Shown here: positions 20,031 through 30,465 of the stretch, piece after piece
How the letters are laid out: the number at the start of each line of letters is the position of its first letter
Position numbering within the stretch: the first letter of the stretch is position 1
Origin: Candidatus Brocadiia bacterium
GTDB lineage: Bacteria > Planctomycetota > MHYJ01 > JACQXL01 > JACQZI01
Length of the DNA: 40,131 nt
Assembly: GCA_020051675.1 (NCBI GenBank)
Contig: JAGVQN010000037.1
Location: 1-40,131, forward strand
Direction of reading: 5' to 3'
Notes under the pieces: model-generated
The model's input: only the letters and a program-made list of their open reading frames with translations
What the model was told of the DNA's origin: nothing
Database searches by the model: none
Program-made: the position numbers and the translations under genes

Positions 20031-20231
20031 TTATTTGCTTTCAATGGCCTTTGCTTGCTCTTTCTTGGCGTCTTTCATGGCAATCCAAATGCAAACAGCC
20101 AATCCCCCGAAAACCAGCCCGAACGAAATCACTCCCATTAAAATGGCGGGCCAGCCCAAACCGCCCGGACTGTCACCCGCTACGATAATAGGCGCTTCCG
20201 ATGTAAATGCGATGAGCGATAACCAATCCAT
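20031..20231 (-). CDS. Small single-TM protein, MetS-like small subunit of the NSS transporter
   Basis: 66 aa, one TM helix (GWPAILMGVISFGLVFGGLAVCIWIAM); start lies 1 nt after the NSS transporter stop. Confidence 0.65.
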   Translation of the reverse strand: MDWLSLIAFTSEAPIIVAGDSPGGLGWPAILMGVISFGLVFGGLAVCIWIAMKDAKKEQAKAIESK

Positions 20232-20232
20232 A

Positions 20233-21951
20233 TTATTCCTCCTTACGGCCTTTAATCAAACTAAAGACAACGGCAAGCACCGCCACGATAATCAGCATCA
20301 GCCATCCGCCCAGGAAAAGCGCCTGCCAAGAATATCCTCCATACCTTGGTTTCAAGCGAATAAGCGGCAAACTCTTTTGCACACTGTCGCCTACTTTAAC
20401 TTTAACTTCGGCTACTATCCCATCACAAGACGATTTGACTTCTGTTTGCTTATCAGTTTCTTCTAAAATAAATAACACCTGCCCATTTGCGACTTGATCA
20501 TCAGGCTTAACATTAACAGTAATAACTTTGCTTGGCGACTGCGCTTTGATGTCTTTCGGAAAAGCTAAATCCATTACAGTAAGCGTTCCCATGACGCCTA
20601 ACATTGCCGGTGCAATCAGCATAATCATTACGTTCCACCATTTGCCTATTCGGAAATCCGATAGTTCATTGACATATTTTCTTATTTTACCGGTGCCAAA
20701 GAAATATCCAATGGAGATACATTCCAAAATACCAACTAGAATAAGCAAAACCTCGCTGTTAAACTTATCTACAATATCCAACCACCAATAACCTGTCTGT
20801 GTTGTGAACAAAATCCCGGCCCCAAAACCGATGATGCCGATAATGATATTAACCAGCGGGCGGTTTTTCGCCCATTTATCCAGGACGCCGGCGGTAAACG
20901 CCTCGACCAGAGAAAACGCCGAATCAATCGCCAGTAAAACCAGCATGACAAAAAAGAGCACTCCGAATAGCGGCGCCAACGGCAGGGTGCTGATAATCGC
21001 CGGGTAAGTGACGAACATGAGCGAGGGGCCGCCTTTAGCCACCTCCGCGACCGATTTGCCGGTTTCGTGGGAAAGGTAACCGAGCGCCGAGAAAACAGCC
21101 AAGCATCCCAGGAACGAAAATGCCGTATCGCCCAGGCAGATGATAAAGGCATTGTTAACGATATCGGATTTCCTCGGCAGGAAACTGGCATAGGCAATCA
21201 TTATGCCGAAGCCGATGGATAAGGAGAAAAAGACCTGCCCGTAAGCCGCGACCCAGACCTTGGGCTCAAGCATCTTGCTGAAATCCGGCGTGAGCAAATA
21301 CCTCAGGCCGTCTACCGCGCCAGGCAAGGTTAAACCTCTTACGACGAAAATCAATAAAATACCGATAGGAACGGTGGCCGTAATATAAACCACTTTGCTG
21401 ACGGTCTTGGCGCCTTTCCAGATGGAAAGGATAATCCAAATCCACATCGCGAAAAGGATTCCGACCAATAGCCAACTGACCGTTCCGACAGAAAGGATAT
21501 CAGCGGCGGGAATCTTGTTTAGGACGTTATTAAAGAAAAACCCTTCCGTATCTTTTCCCCAGGAAAGGTTAAACGAATACCCGATATAGAGCGTGGACCA
21601 GACCATGATAACGGCATAATAGGTGACCAGGACAAACCCGCAAAGGATGGCGAGCCAGCCGACCCATTCAACGCCTTTCTTGACGCGGGCAAAGGCGCGT
21701 GGCGCGCTGGAGTTCATCATATGTCCCAAGCCGAATTCCAGAATCATCAACGGTATGCCGGCCGTAAGCAGGGCAATCAAATAGACCAAAAGGAACGCGC
21801 CGCCGCCGCCTTCATAACAGACAAAAGGAAAACGCCAGAGGTTGCCCAGTCCGATTGCCGAGGCGACCGAAGCGAGGATAAAAGCCCGCCGGCTTGTCCA
21901 GCCGTCTGCTAAACGCCCGTCATCCGCATTGAACTGCCCTAATTCTGCCAT
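20233..21951 (-). CDS. Sodium:neurotransmitter symporter (NSS/SNF) family transporter with lipoyl-like domain
   Basis: WTSRRAFILASVASAIGLGNLWRFPFVCYEGGGGAFLLVYL; about 12 TM helices; residues ~472-535 resemble a biotinyl/lipoyl domain. Confidence 0.92.
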   Translation of the reverse strand: MAELGQFNADDGRLADGWTSRRAFILASVASAIGLGNLWRFPFVCYEGGGGAFLLVYLIALLTAGIPLMILEFGLGHMMNSSAPRAFARVKKGVEWVGWLAILCGFVLVTYYAVIMVWSTLYIGYSFNLSWGKDTEGFFFNNVLNKIPAADILSVGTVSWLLVGILFAMWIWIILSIWKGAKTVSKVVYITATVPIGILLIFVVRGLTLPGAVDGLRYLLTPDFSKMLEPKVWVAAYGQVFFSLSIGFGIMIAYASFLPRKSDIVNNAFIICLGDTAFSFLGCLAVFSALGYLSHETGKSVAEVAKGGPSLMFVTYPAIISTLPLAPLFGVLFFVMLVLLAIDSAFSLVEAFTAGVLDKWAKNRPLVNIIIGIIGFGAGILFTTQTGYWWLDIVDKFNSEVLLILVGILECISIGYFFGTGKIRKYVNELSDFRIGKWWNVMIMLIAPAMLGVMGTLTVMDLAFPKDIKAQSPSKVITVNVKPDDQVANGQVLFILEETDKQTEVKSSCDGIVAEVKVKVGDSVQKSLPLIRLKPRYGGYSWQALFLGGWLMLIIVAVLAVVFSLIKGRKEE

Positions 21952-23138: not shown

Positions 23139-24098
23139 TTATCCTTTTCTCCCCAAGATATGTCGGGGCAGGTTAGATAAAACGCCCCATCTTAATAAGG
23201 GCAGCATGATTTCATGGTGGCCGGTCAGGTTTATCCCGCGGGAGACGGTTCGGCCGGTTACGTTCATTACCGGGCGGTAATGCTGGAGCATATCCAGGTT
23301 GGCGGTGGTTATTTTATCCAGCTTATACCCGAGGTTTCTGGCGGCAGAAACGGCTTTCAAGAAAACTTCAGGCAGTATAACCGCCGAGCCGATATTGAGC
23401 CAGATGCCGTTATTCATTCCGGCGACCAGCGAGGCGAATGTTTTGAAATCCGAAAGGCTCGCCGCGCCCAGATTGGCCCCGGAAACCAAGGGGTGCATAT
23501 GGATGGTATCGGTTCCGATGGCAATGTGGATGGTCAAGGGGATATTTAAACGGGCGGCGGCCGCCATGATGCTGTATTTCGCATAGGGAGTTTTTTCTTT
23601 CAGGAGCAGCCGTCCGCAGGTTTTGCCCAGCCCTTCCTGCCTTTCGATAGCCGCCTGTCCGGTTTTTGCGAAGAACGCGGCGGTTTCTTTTGCCATGCCG
23701 AATTTGCCGCTTTTGATATTTTCGCGGACGTCTTCCGAGGTCGCGCCGATAAGCGCTATTTCGAAGTCGTGGATTGCCCCGGCGCCGTTCATGGCGATAA
23801 ATTTTATGATGCCTCTTTCCATCAGGTCTATGATAACCGGAGAAAGCCCGCATTTAATCACATGTGTGCCGACACCGGCGCCGATTAAGTATTTGCCCTT
23901 ATAGGAGCGGACTATTTCGCCGACCAGCTGCCGGAAGGAACTGCCGGCCAGGATATCCGGCAAACCAGCGGTAAAGCTTTTGAATCCCTTGGGCGGTTCG
24001 GTCAGCCGGCAGAATTGCTTTACGTTAACCAGGTTTTTACGGCTCTTGATGGAATATGTTTTCAGCCGGTTGAAATCTAATTTATTTGTCGGTTCCAT
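23139..24098 (-). CDS. Deoxyhypusine synthase-like family protein
   Basis: GAGVGTHVIKCGLSPVIIDLMERGIIKFIAMNGAGAIHDFEIALIGATSEDV resembles bacterial DHS-like proteins. Confidence 0.6.
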   Translation of the reverse strand: MEPTNKLDFNRLKTYSIKSRKNLVNVKQFCRLTEPPKGFKSFTAGLPDILAGSSFRQLVGEIVRSYKGKYLIGAGVGTHVIKCGLSPVIIDLMERGIIKFIAMNGAGAIHDFEIALIGATSEDVRENIKSGKFGMAKETAAFFAKTGQAAIERQEGLGKTCGRLLLKEKTPYAKYSIMAAAARLNIPLTIHIAIGTDTIHMHPLVSGANLGAASLSDFKTFASLVAGMNNGIWLNIGSAVILPEVFLKAVSAARNLGYKLDKITTANLDMLQHYRPVMNVTGRTVSRGINLTGHHEIMLPLLRWGVLSNLPRHILGRKG

Positions 24099-24168
24099 AG
24101 GGGTGATTATAAATAACAGCGGTTATAAATACAAATAAAATAATTATTTGAAATACGCCGTCAGGCGG

Positions 24169-25878
24169 TTAAATTGTTCCCTGGAGAGCTTCGTCCATGG
24201 AGATTATTCCGGCGGCGACTTTTGCCAGGGCGTATTCGCGCAGTGTCTGCATGCCCAGCTCTACGGCTTTAATTTTTATCAAGTCGAAGGTGGCCGCTTT
24301 GGCAATCAGTTCTTTAATCGGGTCGCTTATGGTCATTACCTCCATGATGGAGGTTCGGCCTTTGGTGCCGAGCATATCGCAGCGCGAACAGCCGTTTGAC
24401 CGGAACAATTCCTTAGGCGGTTCCCGCAGGTTCTTGAAATACGGGAGCAGCGAGTTTGGCGTGGGATAAGGCTCTTTGCAGTTTTCGCATAACCTTCGCA
24501 GCAGGCGCTGGGCGATAATAATTTCCAAAGAAGAAGCGATAAGATAAGGCTCGCCGCCCATATTAATTAATCTCGAAATAGTGCCCGGCGCGTCATTCGT
24601 GTGGATGGTGCTTAAAACCAGATGGCCGGTAAGAGAGGCTTTTATGGCGATATCCAGGGTTTCCCTGTCCCGGATTTCCCCGATCATGACGACATCCGGG
24701 TCCTGGCGCAGGATGGATTTTAACGCGGCGGCAAAGGTTAATCCGGCATCGACATTGACATTGACCTGGTTAACCATGGACAGTTCATATTCGACCGGGT
24801 CTTCCACCGTGACGATATTCAAATCCGGCTTATTAATATGATTCAATGAGGCATAAAGCGTGGTGGTCTTGCCGCTGCCGGTCGGCCCGGTTACCAGTAT
24901 CAATCCGTAAGGCAATTCAATCGCCCGTTTTATCTGGCTGATAATATTATCGGAAAGCTGGAAATCGTCAAGCCGGAGGCTGATAGAGCTTTTATCAAGT
25001 ATGCGGATGACTATTTTTTCCCCGTGCCTTACCGGCAAAGAGGAAACCCGCAGGTCGACTTCGCGGTTTTCGAAGACGATTTTTATCTGGCCGTCCTGCG
25101 GCAGGCGCTTTTCGGAAATATCGAGTTTGGCCATTATTTTCAGGCGGGAAATAACCTGCAATTGGATTGATTTGGGGAGCGGCTCCTGCTCGACCAGCAT
25201 GCCGTCAATGCGGTACCTGACCCCGACCATTTTCGGGCGCGGCTCGATATGGATATCGCTGGCGCGTTTGCGCACGGCCGAGGCGATAATATGGTTAGCC
25301 AGTTTTATGATGGGGGTTTCGTCGATGAATACCGCCTGGCTTTTTTCGGTATTTTCCGGGGTGATGTTTATTTCGTAATTGCCGTCGGGTGATTTCGCAT
25401 CTTTATTCGGCCCGGATTCGGAAATAATCTGTTCGACGTTTACCTTATTGCTGTGGCAGCGGTTTATAGCTTCCATTATTTCGGATTCTTTTGCCAGGAC
25501 GGGGGTTATTTCGCATCCGCTTATCAAGGCGATTTCATCCATGGTGATAATGTTCAAGGGATCGGTCACCGCGACCGAAAGCGATTTGCCCGCCAGCGAG
25601 ATAGGGATGACTTTATATTTGCGGCATTTATCAGCCGGTATTTTATCAAGCGCCTCTTTATCTATCTGATAATCCTGCAGGCGGATTGCCGCGACCCCCA
25701 GGATGGTAATCAAAGCGCCGGTTAATTCCTCCTCGGAAAGTAATTTCAGCCCCAATAAAGCGTCTTTCAGCGAGATGTTTTTAAGCACCTGGTGTTCATA
25801 AGCTGAAAGGACCTGGTTTTCGGTTAAGAAACCTTCTTTAATCAAATCCTGCCCGAACTTTTTATCAGAAAGCAGCAT
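24169..25878 (-). CDS. GspE/PilB-type secretion or type IV pilus assembly ATPase
   Basis: Walker A GPTGSGKTTTLY, Asp/His boxes, ILRQDPDVVMIGEIRD, MshEN N-terminus, zinc site CENC...CSRC. Confidence 0.93.
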   Translation of the reverse strand: MLLSDKKFGQDLIKEGFLTENQVLSAYEHQVLKNISLKDALLGLKLLSEEELTGALITILGVAAIRLQDYQIDKEALDKIPADKCRKYKVIPISLAGKSLSVAVTDPLNIITMDEIALISGCEITPVLAKESEIMEAINRCHSNKVNVEQIISESGPNKDAKSPDGNYEINITPENTEKSQAVFIDETPIIKLANHIIASAVRKRASDIHIEPRPKMVGVRYRIDGMLVEQEPLPKSIQLQVISRLKIMAKLDISEKRLPQDGQIKIVFENREVDLRVSSLPVRHGEKIVIRILDKSSISLRLDDFQLSDNIISQIKRAIELPYGLILVTGPTGSGKTTTLYASLNHINKPDLNIVTVEDPVEYELSMVNQVNVNVDAGLTFAAALKSILRQDPDVVMIGEIRDRETLDIAIKASLTGHLVLSTIHTNDAPGTISRLINMGGEPYLIASSLEIIIAQRLLRRLCENCKEPYPTPNSLLPYFKNLREPPKELFRSNGCSRCDMLGTKGRTSIMEVMTISDPIKELIAKAATFDLIKIKAVELGMQTLREYALAKVAAGIISMDEALQGTI

Positions 25879-25886
25879 AATTATTA

Positions 25887-26792
25887 TTAAATTGAAGTAA
25901 AGAGGTTAAATTCGTCGTCCTGGACTTTCTCGGCCATTTTCGGCTTAATCCGGTTATCAAAATTCTTCCAGGTAAAAGATAAATTATTGCTTAACGAGCG
26001 CAAGGCGTGCCGGAATTCGTCATCGGTTACCGTGCAGGCGGCAGGCGCCGTTTCATCCTTAGGCTTTACCGGGCTGGGGGCGGTTTTATCAAACGGGATA
26101 TCCGAGACATGTATCCGGTCGCTTTGTTCCCTGGGCGGTTCTGCCGGGGCGGGTGCCGGCGCCATGGTTTTTGCCCTGGAAGATAAAATGGTTATTACTT
26201 CTTTAAATTCGCTCAGGCGGCAGATGACCGGCTTGACTTTATATCCGGTCAGGTTTTCCAAATTAGAGATGGAATCTTTGTTGTTCGGGTTTACCATGGC
26301 AACTATCAAAACCTTTCCGATTTTATCTATGGGCATCAGCTGGTTAGTTTCGATAAAAGACAAAGGGATTTCTTTAAGCAGTTCCTTAGGGACCATATGG
26401 GCGTTAATCTTGATATACGGCAGGCGGCTTTGCTGGGAGAGATAAGACACCAAGGTTTCTTCCGAAATCAGGTTCATTTCAATCAAGACCTCGCCGAGAA
26501 ATTTACGCGGCTTGGTTTGTTCCTGGACGGCCAGCGCTTTCTGAAGGGTTTCCCAGCTGATAAGCTTTGATTCGAGCAGCAATTCGCCTAATCTGGAATG
26601 TTCTTTCCCTTTTACGTGGATAAAAGTGGTTGCCGGTTTGGCCTGGGTTTCGCCGGCAGGCGGAACGGCCGCAGCCGGTTTCGGGTGTTTCGGCGGAGCG
26701 GACATGTTTTTTGGAGCGTGCGGCGGCTTCAGCGTTTTGAGAAGGGGCTTTTTCCCCTTTTCTTTCTTCTTAGAAAACAAGTTCCAGAACAT
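25887..26792 (-). CDS. MshEN (GspE N-terminal) domain protein, no ATPase domain
   Basis: LGELLLESKLISWETLQKALAVQEQ...LVSYLSQQSRLPYIKI...IPLSFIETNQLMPI; no Walker A. Confidence 0.8.
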   Translation of the reverse strand: MFWNLFSKKKEKGKKPLLKTLKPPHAPKNMSAPPKHPKPAAAVPPAGETQAKPATTFIHVKGKEHSRLGELLLESKLISWETLQKALAVQEQTKPRKFLGEVLIEMNLISEETLVSYLSQQSRLPYIKINAHMVPKELLKEIPLSFIETNQLMPIDKIGKVLIVAMVNPNNKDSISNLENLTGYKVKPVICRLSEFKEVITILSSRAKTMAPAPAPAEPPREQSDRIHVSDIPFDKTAPSPVKPKDETAPAACTVTDDEFRHALRSLSNNLSFTWKNFDNRIKPKMAEKVQDDEFNLFTSI

Positions 26793-26851
26793 TTTGCTCC
26801 TTTAATCAGATAGCATTATATATCCTTATCGAGATTATGCAATATTTTTTG

Positions 26852-26879
26852 TTGACTTAATATGCGGAAGTTGTAGACT
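26852..26879 (+). promoter_or_regulatory. Sigma70-like promoter for the HU/HATPase gene
   Basis: TTGACT (26852-26857), 16-nt spacer, TAGACT (26874-26879). Confidence 0.5.
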
Positions 26880-26917
26880 TATCGCATAGGTATTAATTTT
26901 CGGGAAGACGAATTTAT

Positions 26918-28042
26918 ATGCCCAAGCCGGTTAAAAAGAATTTTTCTGAGCTGGTTGCCAAAAGAATCGGGAAGGATTCCAAGGAAGCAAGCGAGCTATT
27001 AAAAGGGCTGGCGGATGACATCATGGAAGAGCTTGCTTCAGGCAACGCGGTTTCCTGGCAAAACATGTTTTCGCTGCGGTTAGCCCAAAAACCGACCCGG
27101 ATGAAGCAGAACCCGCGAACAGGCAAAAAGGTCATTATTCCGCCCAGCCGGTCGATGCGGATAAAAATAGGCAAACAACTGAAGCTTGATTTAAATTCAA
27201 TGGTGCTTGCCAAAAACGTTGTTTTAATTTCCAAGAATGCCGGACAGTGGGATAAAATAAAGGAGCGGCTTGCCGGGCAGCGCGTTTTATGGACGAATAT
27301 CGGCTCCATCGAAGAATTGGAAAAGCAGGAACCGGTCCATGCCCACCTGGTTATTTTGGATTTTATGCCCGATAGCGATGAGTATGACCGGTTGATGGAG
27401 GCCATAAAACTGGGGAATAAGTTTTTCTCCGCGCGTGTTTTAGGCGTTATCAGTGATGGCCATGGCCTTAACGGATTCGAAGCGGCCAAGATAATGTGCG
27501 ACGAATGGGTCAGGATCCCGTTTGATGAAGCGGAGCCCGAAAACACAATCATGAATGAATTGGCAAGATTCGAGGAGGAAAACATCTTCTTTAAGTCGCG
27601 CATGGCTTTAAAATCGCCGTCCGACCACCCAAATATCGAGAAAGCCCTTGAAATGATCAGCCGCCTGGTTGAGCGCCTGCGTTTTCCCGAAGAAAAGCAT
27701 GCGGAGCTGGTTTCGGCGGTGACCGAAGCGGTGGATAATTCAGCCCGGCACGGCAACAACGGGGAAAAGGGGAAGTTTCTTCTTATAGAAATGATTGTTG
27801 ATTCGCAAAGATTTATTTGCCACCTGCATGATGAGGGGAAAGGCTTTGATTACGAAAAGCACCTTAAAAACGTTGTTGACATGGAATCCGCGCTGAAAAC
27901 TTCCAATCAACAGACGCCGACAAAGCATAAGGGCGGCGGATTGGGGATTCTTCTTATGCGCCGCATTATGGATGAGCTGATTTACACGCCTCCGGGAAAC
28001 AGGCTCAGCCTGGTTAAATATTTCAAGGGCAAAAAGAAATAA
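26918..28042 (+). CDS. Multidomain regulator: HU/IHF-like domain, receiver-like domain, RsbW-type HATPase
   Basis: HU-like NPRTGKKVIIPPSRSMRIKIGKQLK; middle domain with LVILDFMPDSDEYDRLMEAI; HATPase motifs EAVDNSARHG, DEGKGFD, GGGLGILLMRR. Confidence 0.8.
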   Translation: MPKPVKKNFSELVAKRIGKDSKEASELLKGLADDIMEELASGNAVSWQNMFSLRLAQKPTRMKQNPRTGKKVIIPPSRSMRIKIGKQLKLDLNSMVLAKNVVLISKNAGQWDKIKERLAGQRVLWTNIGSIEELEKQEPVHAHLVILDFMPDSDEYDRLMEAIKLGNKFFSARVLGVISDGHGLNGFEAAKIMCDEWVRIPFDEAEPENTIMNELARFEEENIFFKSRMALKSPSDHPNIEKALEMISRLVERLRFPEEKHAELVSAVTEAVDNSARHGNNGEKGKFLLIEMIVDSQRFICHLHDEGKGFDYEKHLKNVVDMESALKTSNQQTPTKHKGGGLGILLMRRIMDELIYTPPGNRLSLVKYFKGKKK

Positions 28043-28050
28043 AACCGTGT

Positions 28051-28953
28051 TTAAGCGGGCAGTTCTTTCGTCAGCCTTATGAGTTGCCCCTTGGGCGCGA
28101 GGGTGTTCAAGTCTATCTTGTCAATATTGGATTTGATTTTTTGATATTCAGGCCGGTTTAGCATTTCAGCGGAAAATAAAATCGTGTCGTAAATAACGAA
28201 GCCGATGATTAGTTTTTGTTTCTCAGAGATGATGACCAGCCGGTAGTTGCTGATTGATTTCCCGGTGTTATTTATCAGCGAGCAAACGGTCATGACCGCC
28301 GCGTTAATTTTTGAGATATCTTCTCCGTTGAAGTTTAACAGGAGCGCCTGGTTTTCAATCGTTGATTTAATCCATTCGCTGTTATCCGTATTGGTGGAGA
28401 GCCGCGCTTCAAGGATTTTAGGGACTTTTGACATGAAAGCCTTAACCGCGCCGGTTTCCTCGGCGGAAAAATAAGTGCTGCAATGGACACAACGGTATTT
28501 TCCGGGATGGGCTATTTCCAGGATTCCTTCGCATGACGGGCATTTGAATTTAGCCGGGTAATGCTGTTTGGTGATGGGCTTATAATTGGCTTTTTCGGTT
28601 ATATTGCCCAGGGCGTCTTTTTCGGAATCAAACATTTCCAGGGCCGACCCCAATCCGATAAGTTTAAATATCGCCCAGATCGAAGGCGGGATGCAGGCGA
28701 TTTGGATATCTCCACCGGCATCCCGGTATTTTTCCACATATTTGATCAGCAATCCCATTCCGCTGGAACTTATATAATTCAGCTCGGAAAGGTTGATAAT
28801 CAGCTGGTTAGTTCCTTCAGCCAGGAATTGAGAGAGATGCTGTTCAAAAGGCACAATCGTCGCCGCATCGATCCTGCCTTTCACCCGGCTGATTGCGCAA
28901 TAAGAATTATTCGGAAGGGCGAATTTTTCCGCTTTGAAGCTTAGGTTAGCCAT
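28051..28953 (-). CDS. STAS (anti-anti-sigma-like) protein with zinc ribbon and C-terminal extension
   Basis: LIINLSELNYISSSGMGLLIKYVEKYRDAGGDIQIA (STAS phospho-site); CPSC...CVHC zinc ribbon at residues 138-158. Confidence 0.85.
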   Translation of the reverse strand: MANLSFKAEKFALPNNSYCAISRVKGRIDAATIVPFEQHLSQFLAEGTNQLIINLSELNYISSSGMGLLIKYVEKYRDAGGDIQIACIPPSIWAIFKLIGLGSALEMFDSEKDALGNITEKANYKPITKQHYPAKFKCPSCEGILEIAHPGKYRCVHCSTYFSAEETGAVKAFMSKVPKILEARLSTNTDNSEWIKSTIENQALLLNFNGEDISKINAAVMTVCSLINNTGKSISNYRLVIISEKQKLIIGFVIYDTILFSAEMLNRPEYQKIKSNIDKIDLNTLAPKGQLIRLTKELPA

Positions 28954-29045
28954 ATTTTTTATTTAAATTAGGCGCTTTGTATAGTGCTATAGTAAATATT
29001 TTTCTTATTAAATCAAGCATTAAATATCTAATTATCTTAAGATTT

Positions 29046-29075
29046 TTGACATTGATGCCCGGTTAGTGTTATAAT
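29046..29075 (+). promoter_or_regulatory. Promoter overlapping the annotated MFS start
   Basis: TTGACA (29046-29051), 18-nt spacer, TATAAT (29070-29075). Confidence 0.55.
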
Positions 29076-29085
29076 GAAGTTATTT

Positions 29086-30465
29086 ATGGCTGCCGAGCAA
29101 CCTGATAAACACAAGAAAAGCCTGAAGTATTCGATTATAGACGGCAGCGCCTATTCTATAATGACCGGATTTGGGGAAACCAATATCCAGGCTTTTGCTA
29201 TTAATGTCCTTAAAGCCAGCAACTTGTTCATAGCGCTTTTGGCTTCTATTCCGCAGTTAATCGGTTCTCTTGCCCAATTGTTTTCCGCGAAATTATTGGA
29301 TAAGACGGGCAATCGCAAAAAAATAGTCGTTACATCCTCATTTTTCCAGATGCTTACCTGGGTGCCTATTTTTTTATTGCCTTTCAGTTGGTTTGAATAC
29401 GGTGCTTTATTACTGATTATATACGTAGCGGTTTATTTTGCTTACCTTCATCTTACTGTTCCGGCATGGAACAGTTGGATGGGCGATTTGGTCGCGCCGG
29501 AAAAGCGCGGTGATTATTTCGGGCAACGCAACCGCTTGGCATCCGTATTTAATTTTATTTCCATATTGGTTGCCGGATTGATTCTTGAATTGTGGAAGCC
29601 GATAAACGAGTGGATAGGATTCGGGATTATTTTCGGCATAGCTTTTATTGCCCGAAGCGTTTCTGTTTATTACCTGAGCAGGATAGACGAACCCGTTTAC
29701 AAGGCGACTCCCAAGGACCGGTTTACTTTATGGGATTTTATCAGGCGTTCTCCCAAGTCTAATTTTGCCAGGTTTGTTTTTTATATTACGTTCATTAACT
29801 TTTCTCTGATGGTTTCCGGCCCGTTTTTCGGGGTTTATATGTTGCGCGAGCTTAACCTTTCCTATGTCCAGTTCACGATTGTTAATGCTACCAATGTCAT
29901 AACTCTTTTCCTGGTGATGCGTTACTGGGGGCGGCTTGGCGACCGGTTTGGCAATAAGAAAATACTATCGATTACCGGATGGCTGATTCCTTTTCCTCCG
30001 CTTCTCTGGCTTGTTTCCTCTGATTTTTACTGGATACTCTTTTGCCAGGTGGTAGCCGGGCTTATCTGGAGCGGTTTTAACCTGGCGGCGGCGAATTATT
30101 TATTCGATGCGGTTTCTCCGCCCAAGCGTGCTCGCTGCGTGGCCTACCAGTCTTTGTTTAATAATAACGGTATCTTCTTGGGCGCGCTAACCGGCGGTTT
30201 TATTTCACACTATCTTTCAAGCGACCTGCTCTTATTCGGCAGACATTTTAGTTTGATATCGGCATTCATGAACCTGTTTATACTGTCTTCTTTAATGAGG
30301 CTTTTAATATCGGCGGTTTTCCTGCCGCATATCAAAGAAGTCCGGGAAAAAGTGGAACCGGTCGGCACCTGGAAGCTTTTCTTTCATGTGCTGCATGTCC
30401 GCCCGATTATGGGCCCCCGTTTCCAGGCTTTTACCGGTGATGAGGATGAAAACAGCCGTTCCTAA
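29086..30465 (+). CDS. MFS transporter; start 29086 preferred over 29074
   Basis: About 12 TM helices, GRLGDRFGNKKIL MFS loop motif; the 29074 ATG lies inside a TATAAT box. Confidence 0.88.
   Translation: MAAEQPDKHKKSLKYSIIDGSAYSIMTGFGETNIQAFAINVLKASNLFIALLASIPQLIGSLAQLFSAKLLDKTGNRKKIVVTSSFFQMLTWVPIFLLPFSWFEYGALLLIIYVAVYFAYLHLTVPAWNSWMGDLVAPEKRGDYFGQRNRLASVFNFISILVAGLILELWKPINEWIGFGIIFGIAFIARSVSVYYLSRIDEPVYKATPKDRFTLWDFIRRSPKSNFARFVFYITFINFSLMVSGPFFGVYMLRELNLSYVQFTIVNATNVITLFLVMRYWGRLGDRFGNKKILSITGWLIPFPPLLWLVSSDFYWILFCQVVAGLIWSGFNLAAANYLFDAVSPPKRARCVAYQSLFNNNGIFLGALTGGFISHYLSSDLLLFGRHFSLISAFMNLFILSSLMRLLISAVFLPHIKEVREKVEPVGTWKLFFHVLHVRPIMGPRFQAFTGDEDENSRS

Follow-up and report, generated by a model that had tools for sequence, protein, structure and literature searches.

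MetP-type transporters of the NSS/SLC6 family combine an SNF core of 12 transmembrane helices (TM) with an adjacent gene for a MetS-like small subunit, and they carry a YxxY motif in the loop EL6. In the LeuT fold that these proteins share, TM11 runs from the inside of the membrane to the outside, as seen in NSS structures. EL6 has known roles in human relatives: in hDAT, Y548 and Y551 of this loop anchor TM10a together with Y470 (PMC4890318), and EL6 makes up the top of the allosteric site in SERT (PMC8635421). A second described group bears on the present locus. The biotinyl/lipoyl fold (Pfam PF00364) is found in the biotin carboxyl carrier domains of pyruvate carboxylase, oxaloacetate decarboxylase and BCCP as well as in E2 lipoyl domains. 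In a lipoyl domain the two termini are close neighbours (PMC6270654).

We describe an NSS transporter that shares the SNF core, the 12 TM, the EL6 YxxY motif and the adjacent MetS-like gene with MetP-type proteins but differs from every relative examined by holding a biotinyl/lipoyl domain in EL6. The window, a stretch of 40,131 nucleotides from Candidatus Brocadiia bacterium (GCA_020051675.1, contig JAGVQN010000037.1, positions 1-40,131 of the forward strand), is one contig of a MAG that is 57% complete. On its minus strand, an open reading frame at 20233..21951 encodes a 572-residue protein with 12 TM that matched the Pfam family SNF (PF00209) at E 3.5e-122. In the full-length AlphaFold model the NSS core is predicted with confidence (pLDDT above 90 at most positions), and a Foldseek search with this model retrieved DAT, NET and the glycine transporters GlyT (E 1e-27 to 1e-25). 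Family profile and LeuT-type fold agree in placing the protein in the NSS family. The next gene downstream (20031..20231, minus strand) encodes a 66-residue MetS-like NSS small subunit that scored 29.6 bits against NF033493 (cut-off 25), and a MetS-like gene also adjoins the orthologue in a sister species (L003 1170-1370). The locus thus has the adjacent small subunit that marks two-component MetP/MetS systems, and its 572-residue protein is a predicted sodium-driven amino-acid-type transporter of the MetP-like kind, judged by sequence and model. In five NSS relatives (L012, L053, L019, L062 and L069), extra hydrophobic stretches follow the usual TM12. Some of these C-terminal stretches end in sequence resembling the MetS-like protein, which suggests that the small subunit has fused with the transporter.

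The loop between TM11 and TM12 contains a complete biotinyl/lipoyl fold. Profile match, alignment, model and Foldseek place the domain at about residues 467-535 (20347..20553, minus strand), and in the full-length model it is bordered by TM11 (residues 437-463; 20563..20643, minus strand) and TM12 (residues 542-565; 20257..20328, minus strand). An earlier sequence-only reading had noticed a lipoyl-like domain in this NSS transporter, between its last two helices; it gave the peptide and coordinates exactly (residues 472-535 at 20538-20347 on the minus strand, with the K501 codon at 20449-20451), and its domain and placement both withstood profile and structural analysis. Biotin_lipoyl (PF00364) matched residues 468-533 of the full protein at E 1.5e-9, with 38.0 bits against a curated cut-off of 22.1, and the isolated domain at E 6.2e-11. 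An AlphaFold model of the isolated domain, built with biotinyl homologues from the phylum in its alignment, reached a pLDDT of 84.5 and showed the flattened barrel of the fold. In Foldseek this model matched BCCP structures with TM-scores of about 0.83 (query-normalized) and 0.90-0.97 (target-normalized), and it superposed on most BCCPs at 0.7-1.0 A. The full-length model places the domain poorly (pLDDT 35-54), because the domain is absent from all homologues in that alignment.

Sequence and structure comparisons agree that the domain is nearer to the biotin carriers of pyruvate carboxylase and BCCP than to E2 lipoyl domains. In a phmmer search of the PDB, a biotin carrier protein came up with E 1.2e-7, and E. 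coli E2p reached E 5e-9 when summed over three repeats; scored per domain, P. horikoshi BCCP gave 34.7 bits against 13-17 bits for single E2p lipoyl domains. The top Foldseek matches were biotin carriers and carboxylases, with lipoyl domains lower in the list. The domain also aligned without gaps along its whole length, at 29-43% identity, with ten biotinyl-type domains from the same phylum, among them the genus's own pyruvate-carboxylase-type protein. The lipoyl/biotinyl pattern first recognized by eye stood as to fold, with the closer kinship on the biotinyl side. The biotin carrier encoded in this genome was rejected as a recent source, being only 35% identical to the domain, and a tree of the domain gave no resolution as to the donor.

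The domain has kept its core and lost its attachment site. At 25 columns, eight or more of the ten biotinyl domains share a residue; the window domain retains 14 of these, including V481, D485, V487, L493, I495, L496, E497, E504, G511, V513, E515 and G521, and the core hydrophobic and glycine positions are preserved. The lost columns include P471, M472, G474, A498, M499 and K500, replaced by Q, S, S, E, T and D; these belong to PMPG and AMK, the two motifs that lie at the attachment end. The sequence-only reading had aligned the lysine of the motif E-T-D-K (positions 498-501) with the lipoylated residue of E2 domains, and here it erred by one position. In ungapped alignments, the modified lysine of both E2p (VEGDKAS) and biotin carriers (LEAMKMQNE) falls on Asp500 (20452-20454), and K501 (20449-20451) lies one residue beyond; the two codons occupy 20449..20454 on the minus strand. 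The domain model agrees, with one strand ending at E498, the next beginning at K501 and T499-D500 forming the turn. The domain thus differs from biotin carboxyl carrier domains, its closest structural matches, in having Asp in place of the hairpin-tip lysine of (A/V)MKM, in lacking PMPG and in sitting in a membrane-protein loop. It shares its fold with E2 lipoyl domains, and ETDK resembles their DK(A/V) turn, but its per-domain similarity to them is lower and its lysine is shifted out of register.

The topology of the NSS family puts the domain on the outer side of the membrane. We take the TM11-TM12 loop to be EL6, and the TM10-TM11 linker and the C-terminus, on the opposite side, are rich in Lys and Arg. 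The domain-bearing loop is accordingly predicted to be extracytoplasmic, as first proposed, with support from homology. Directly after the insert, the motif Y537-G-G-Y540 (20332..20343, minus strand) is preserved, and relatives that lack the domain share this EL6 YxxY; Y537 and Y540 are nearly invariant among 42 NSS sequences. Their spacing equals that of hDAT Y548 and Y551, and we infer that the two motifs are homologous. By its position relative to the TM10 Asp, Trp389 in TM10 (codon 20785-20787; Tyr in the sister) may be the counterpart of hDAT Y470, with which the YxxY motif pairs. Long TM11-TM12 loop insertions of about 90-130 residues, with no Pfam match, also occur in more distant NSS proteins of the class and phylum (L027 1384-3312, L030 1423-3393 and L028 1078-2970).

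Comparison with the sister species reveals the same gene without the domain. Our searches reached just one other genome of the genus, that of the sister, which is 97% complete. Its orthologue has 502 residues, is 91% identical over residues 1-460, lies between the same WD40 and MetS-like neighbours and lacks the domain. The sister loop reads LKQIKEGYEGYLPKALFLGG, whereas the window protein carries the domain between TVMD and RYGGYSWQALFLGG. The region is syntenic with the sister at about 80% DNA identity. No second NSS-domain fusion appeared in 24 genomes of the class, in 395 sampled genomes of the phylum, among the 80 best NSS loci from a collection of species-level genomes or in 14 genomes representing the closest of those loci; the class and phylum searches used a TM11-domain-TM12 query with set E-value limits, at which a very divergent fusion could be missed. 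Plasmid NSS matches extended only to about residue 462 among the ten matches listed, and we found no literature on a combination of NSS and lipoyl domains. The rarity claimed from the letters alone thus held within these samples. The outgroups lack the domain, so it was most simply gained in the window's lineage. Lower third-position GC and identity had hinted that a recombined tract spanning codons 385-536 was imported recently; this was not supported, since in a control with 212 windows from seven orthologous genes, other genes reached equal values. Elsewhere in the window, about 5 kb at 24078-29102 is absent from the syntenic place in the sister (L152 11737-11916). This segment encodes a type II/IV secretion ATPase with MshEN, a second MshEN-like protein, an IHF-RsbW protein and a STAS protein. 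The IHF-RsbW protein (26918-28042, plus strand; 374 residues) joins an IHF/HU-like DNA-binding region (6-95) to an RsbW-like anti-sigma kinase (247-372), an unusual combination.

We give about an even chance to the account in which the attachment site of a captured carrier domain has gone and any role left to the domain is that of an unmodified cap or docking module at the outer face. A biotin-carrier-type domain of the pyruvate carboxylase/BCCP kind would have been inserted in frame into EL6 of a MetP-like NSS protein in this species' lineage. The domain is complete, its attachment residues are gone and those of its core are kept, and both the core of the transporter and its YxxY motif in EL6 are intact. 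Since a lipoyl domain has its two ends near each other, such a fold would be easily accepted in a loop, with TM11 and TM12 undisturbed. The domain would fold outside the cytoplasmic membrane and remain unmodified. It may sit beside the outer vestibule, on the TM10-TM12/EL6 face, where it could modulate the transporter or contact a partner. The periplasmic HlyD/AcrA adaptors offer a likeness in use, not in descent or layout: they carry unmodified lipoyl (barrel-sandwich) domains outside the cytoplasm in transport proteins. Those are separate adaptors whose lipoyl domain is split around a coiled-coil hairpin, whereas the window domain is continuous, has no hairpin insert and lies within a transporter loop; HlyD families matched the full protein weakly (Pfam, E 0.04-0.08).

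A working swinging arm, in which K501 is lipoylated or biotinylated and performs redox or carboxyl chemistry at the transporter, is very improbable. Its lysine does adjoin the hairpin tip, and the genus encodes LipA, GcvH and BPL/LplA/LipB-type ligases; the case for non-modification therefore rests on register and location rather than on absent enzymes. Biotin and lipoate ligases are cytoplasmic, and the loop is predicted to lie outside. No E2-type lipoyl domain was recognized in the 97%-complete sister genome. In B. stearothermophilus E2p, lysines placed beside the true site stayed unlipoylated (D41K, A43K and D41K/K42A; PMC6270654). The register and the loss of PMPG and AMK led us to reject lipoylation at K501. 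With the attachment lysine lost, the domain probably has a structural or docking role and does not work as a cofactor arm. An artefact of assembly or binning that joined two genes, which the sequence-only reading had named as a threat to its claim, is hardly credible. The source is an incomplete MAG and the GC content of the insert (0.40) falls below that of the rest of the gene (0.50), but the insert is in frame and comprises one whole domain, the sequence on either side of it comes from a single gene that is syntenic with its sister counterpart, and dips in third-position GC like that of the flanking codons occur in other window genes too.

The main rival to a cap or docking module, and nearly as likely, is a neutral passenger: a functionless domain, tolerated in a permissive loop thanks to its close termini and now decaying. 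This would fit an NSS domain fusion seen in one genome only, the unrelated insertions of roughly 90-130 residues in EL6 of other NSS proteins of the class and phylum, and changes at further family-typical positions (G484 to D, P508 to S). Against decay, the open frame and the hydrophobic and glycine pattern of the fold are kept domain-wide despite only 29-43% identity to biotinyl domains. This retention is weak evidence because the insertion may have happened at any point after divergence from the sister, whose DNA is now about 80% identical. A bolder version of the cap or docking reading strikes us as unlikely: selection would have favoured the domain as a functional module outside the cytoplasm for regulating or docking the transporter, and this protein would be one of a broader, so far unsampled group of NSS proteins that carry such folds in EL6.

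The locus presents a clean case of domain capture, in which two species of one genus have the same syntenic gene with and without the domain. It also cautions that a look-alike motif is insufficient for calling a lipoylation site. For the NSS family, it means that EL6 of the LeuT fold, a loop of pharmacological importance in human relatives, accepts a whole folded domain, and the orthologues with and without that domain form a natural pair for probing the role of EL6.
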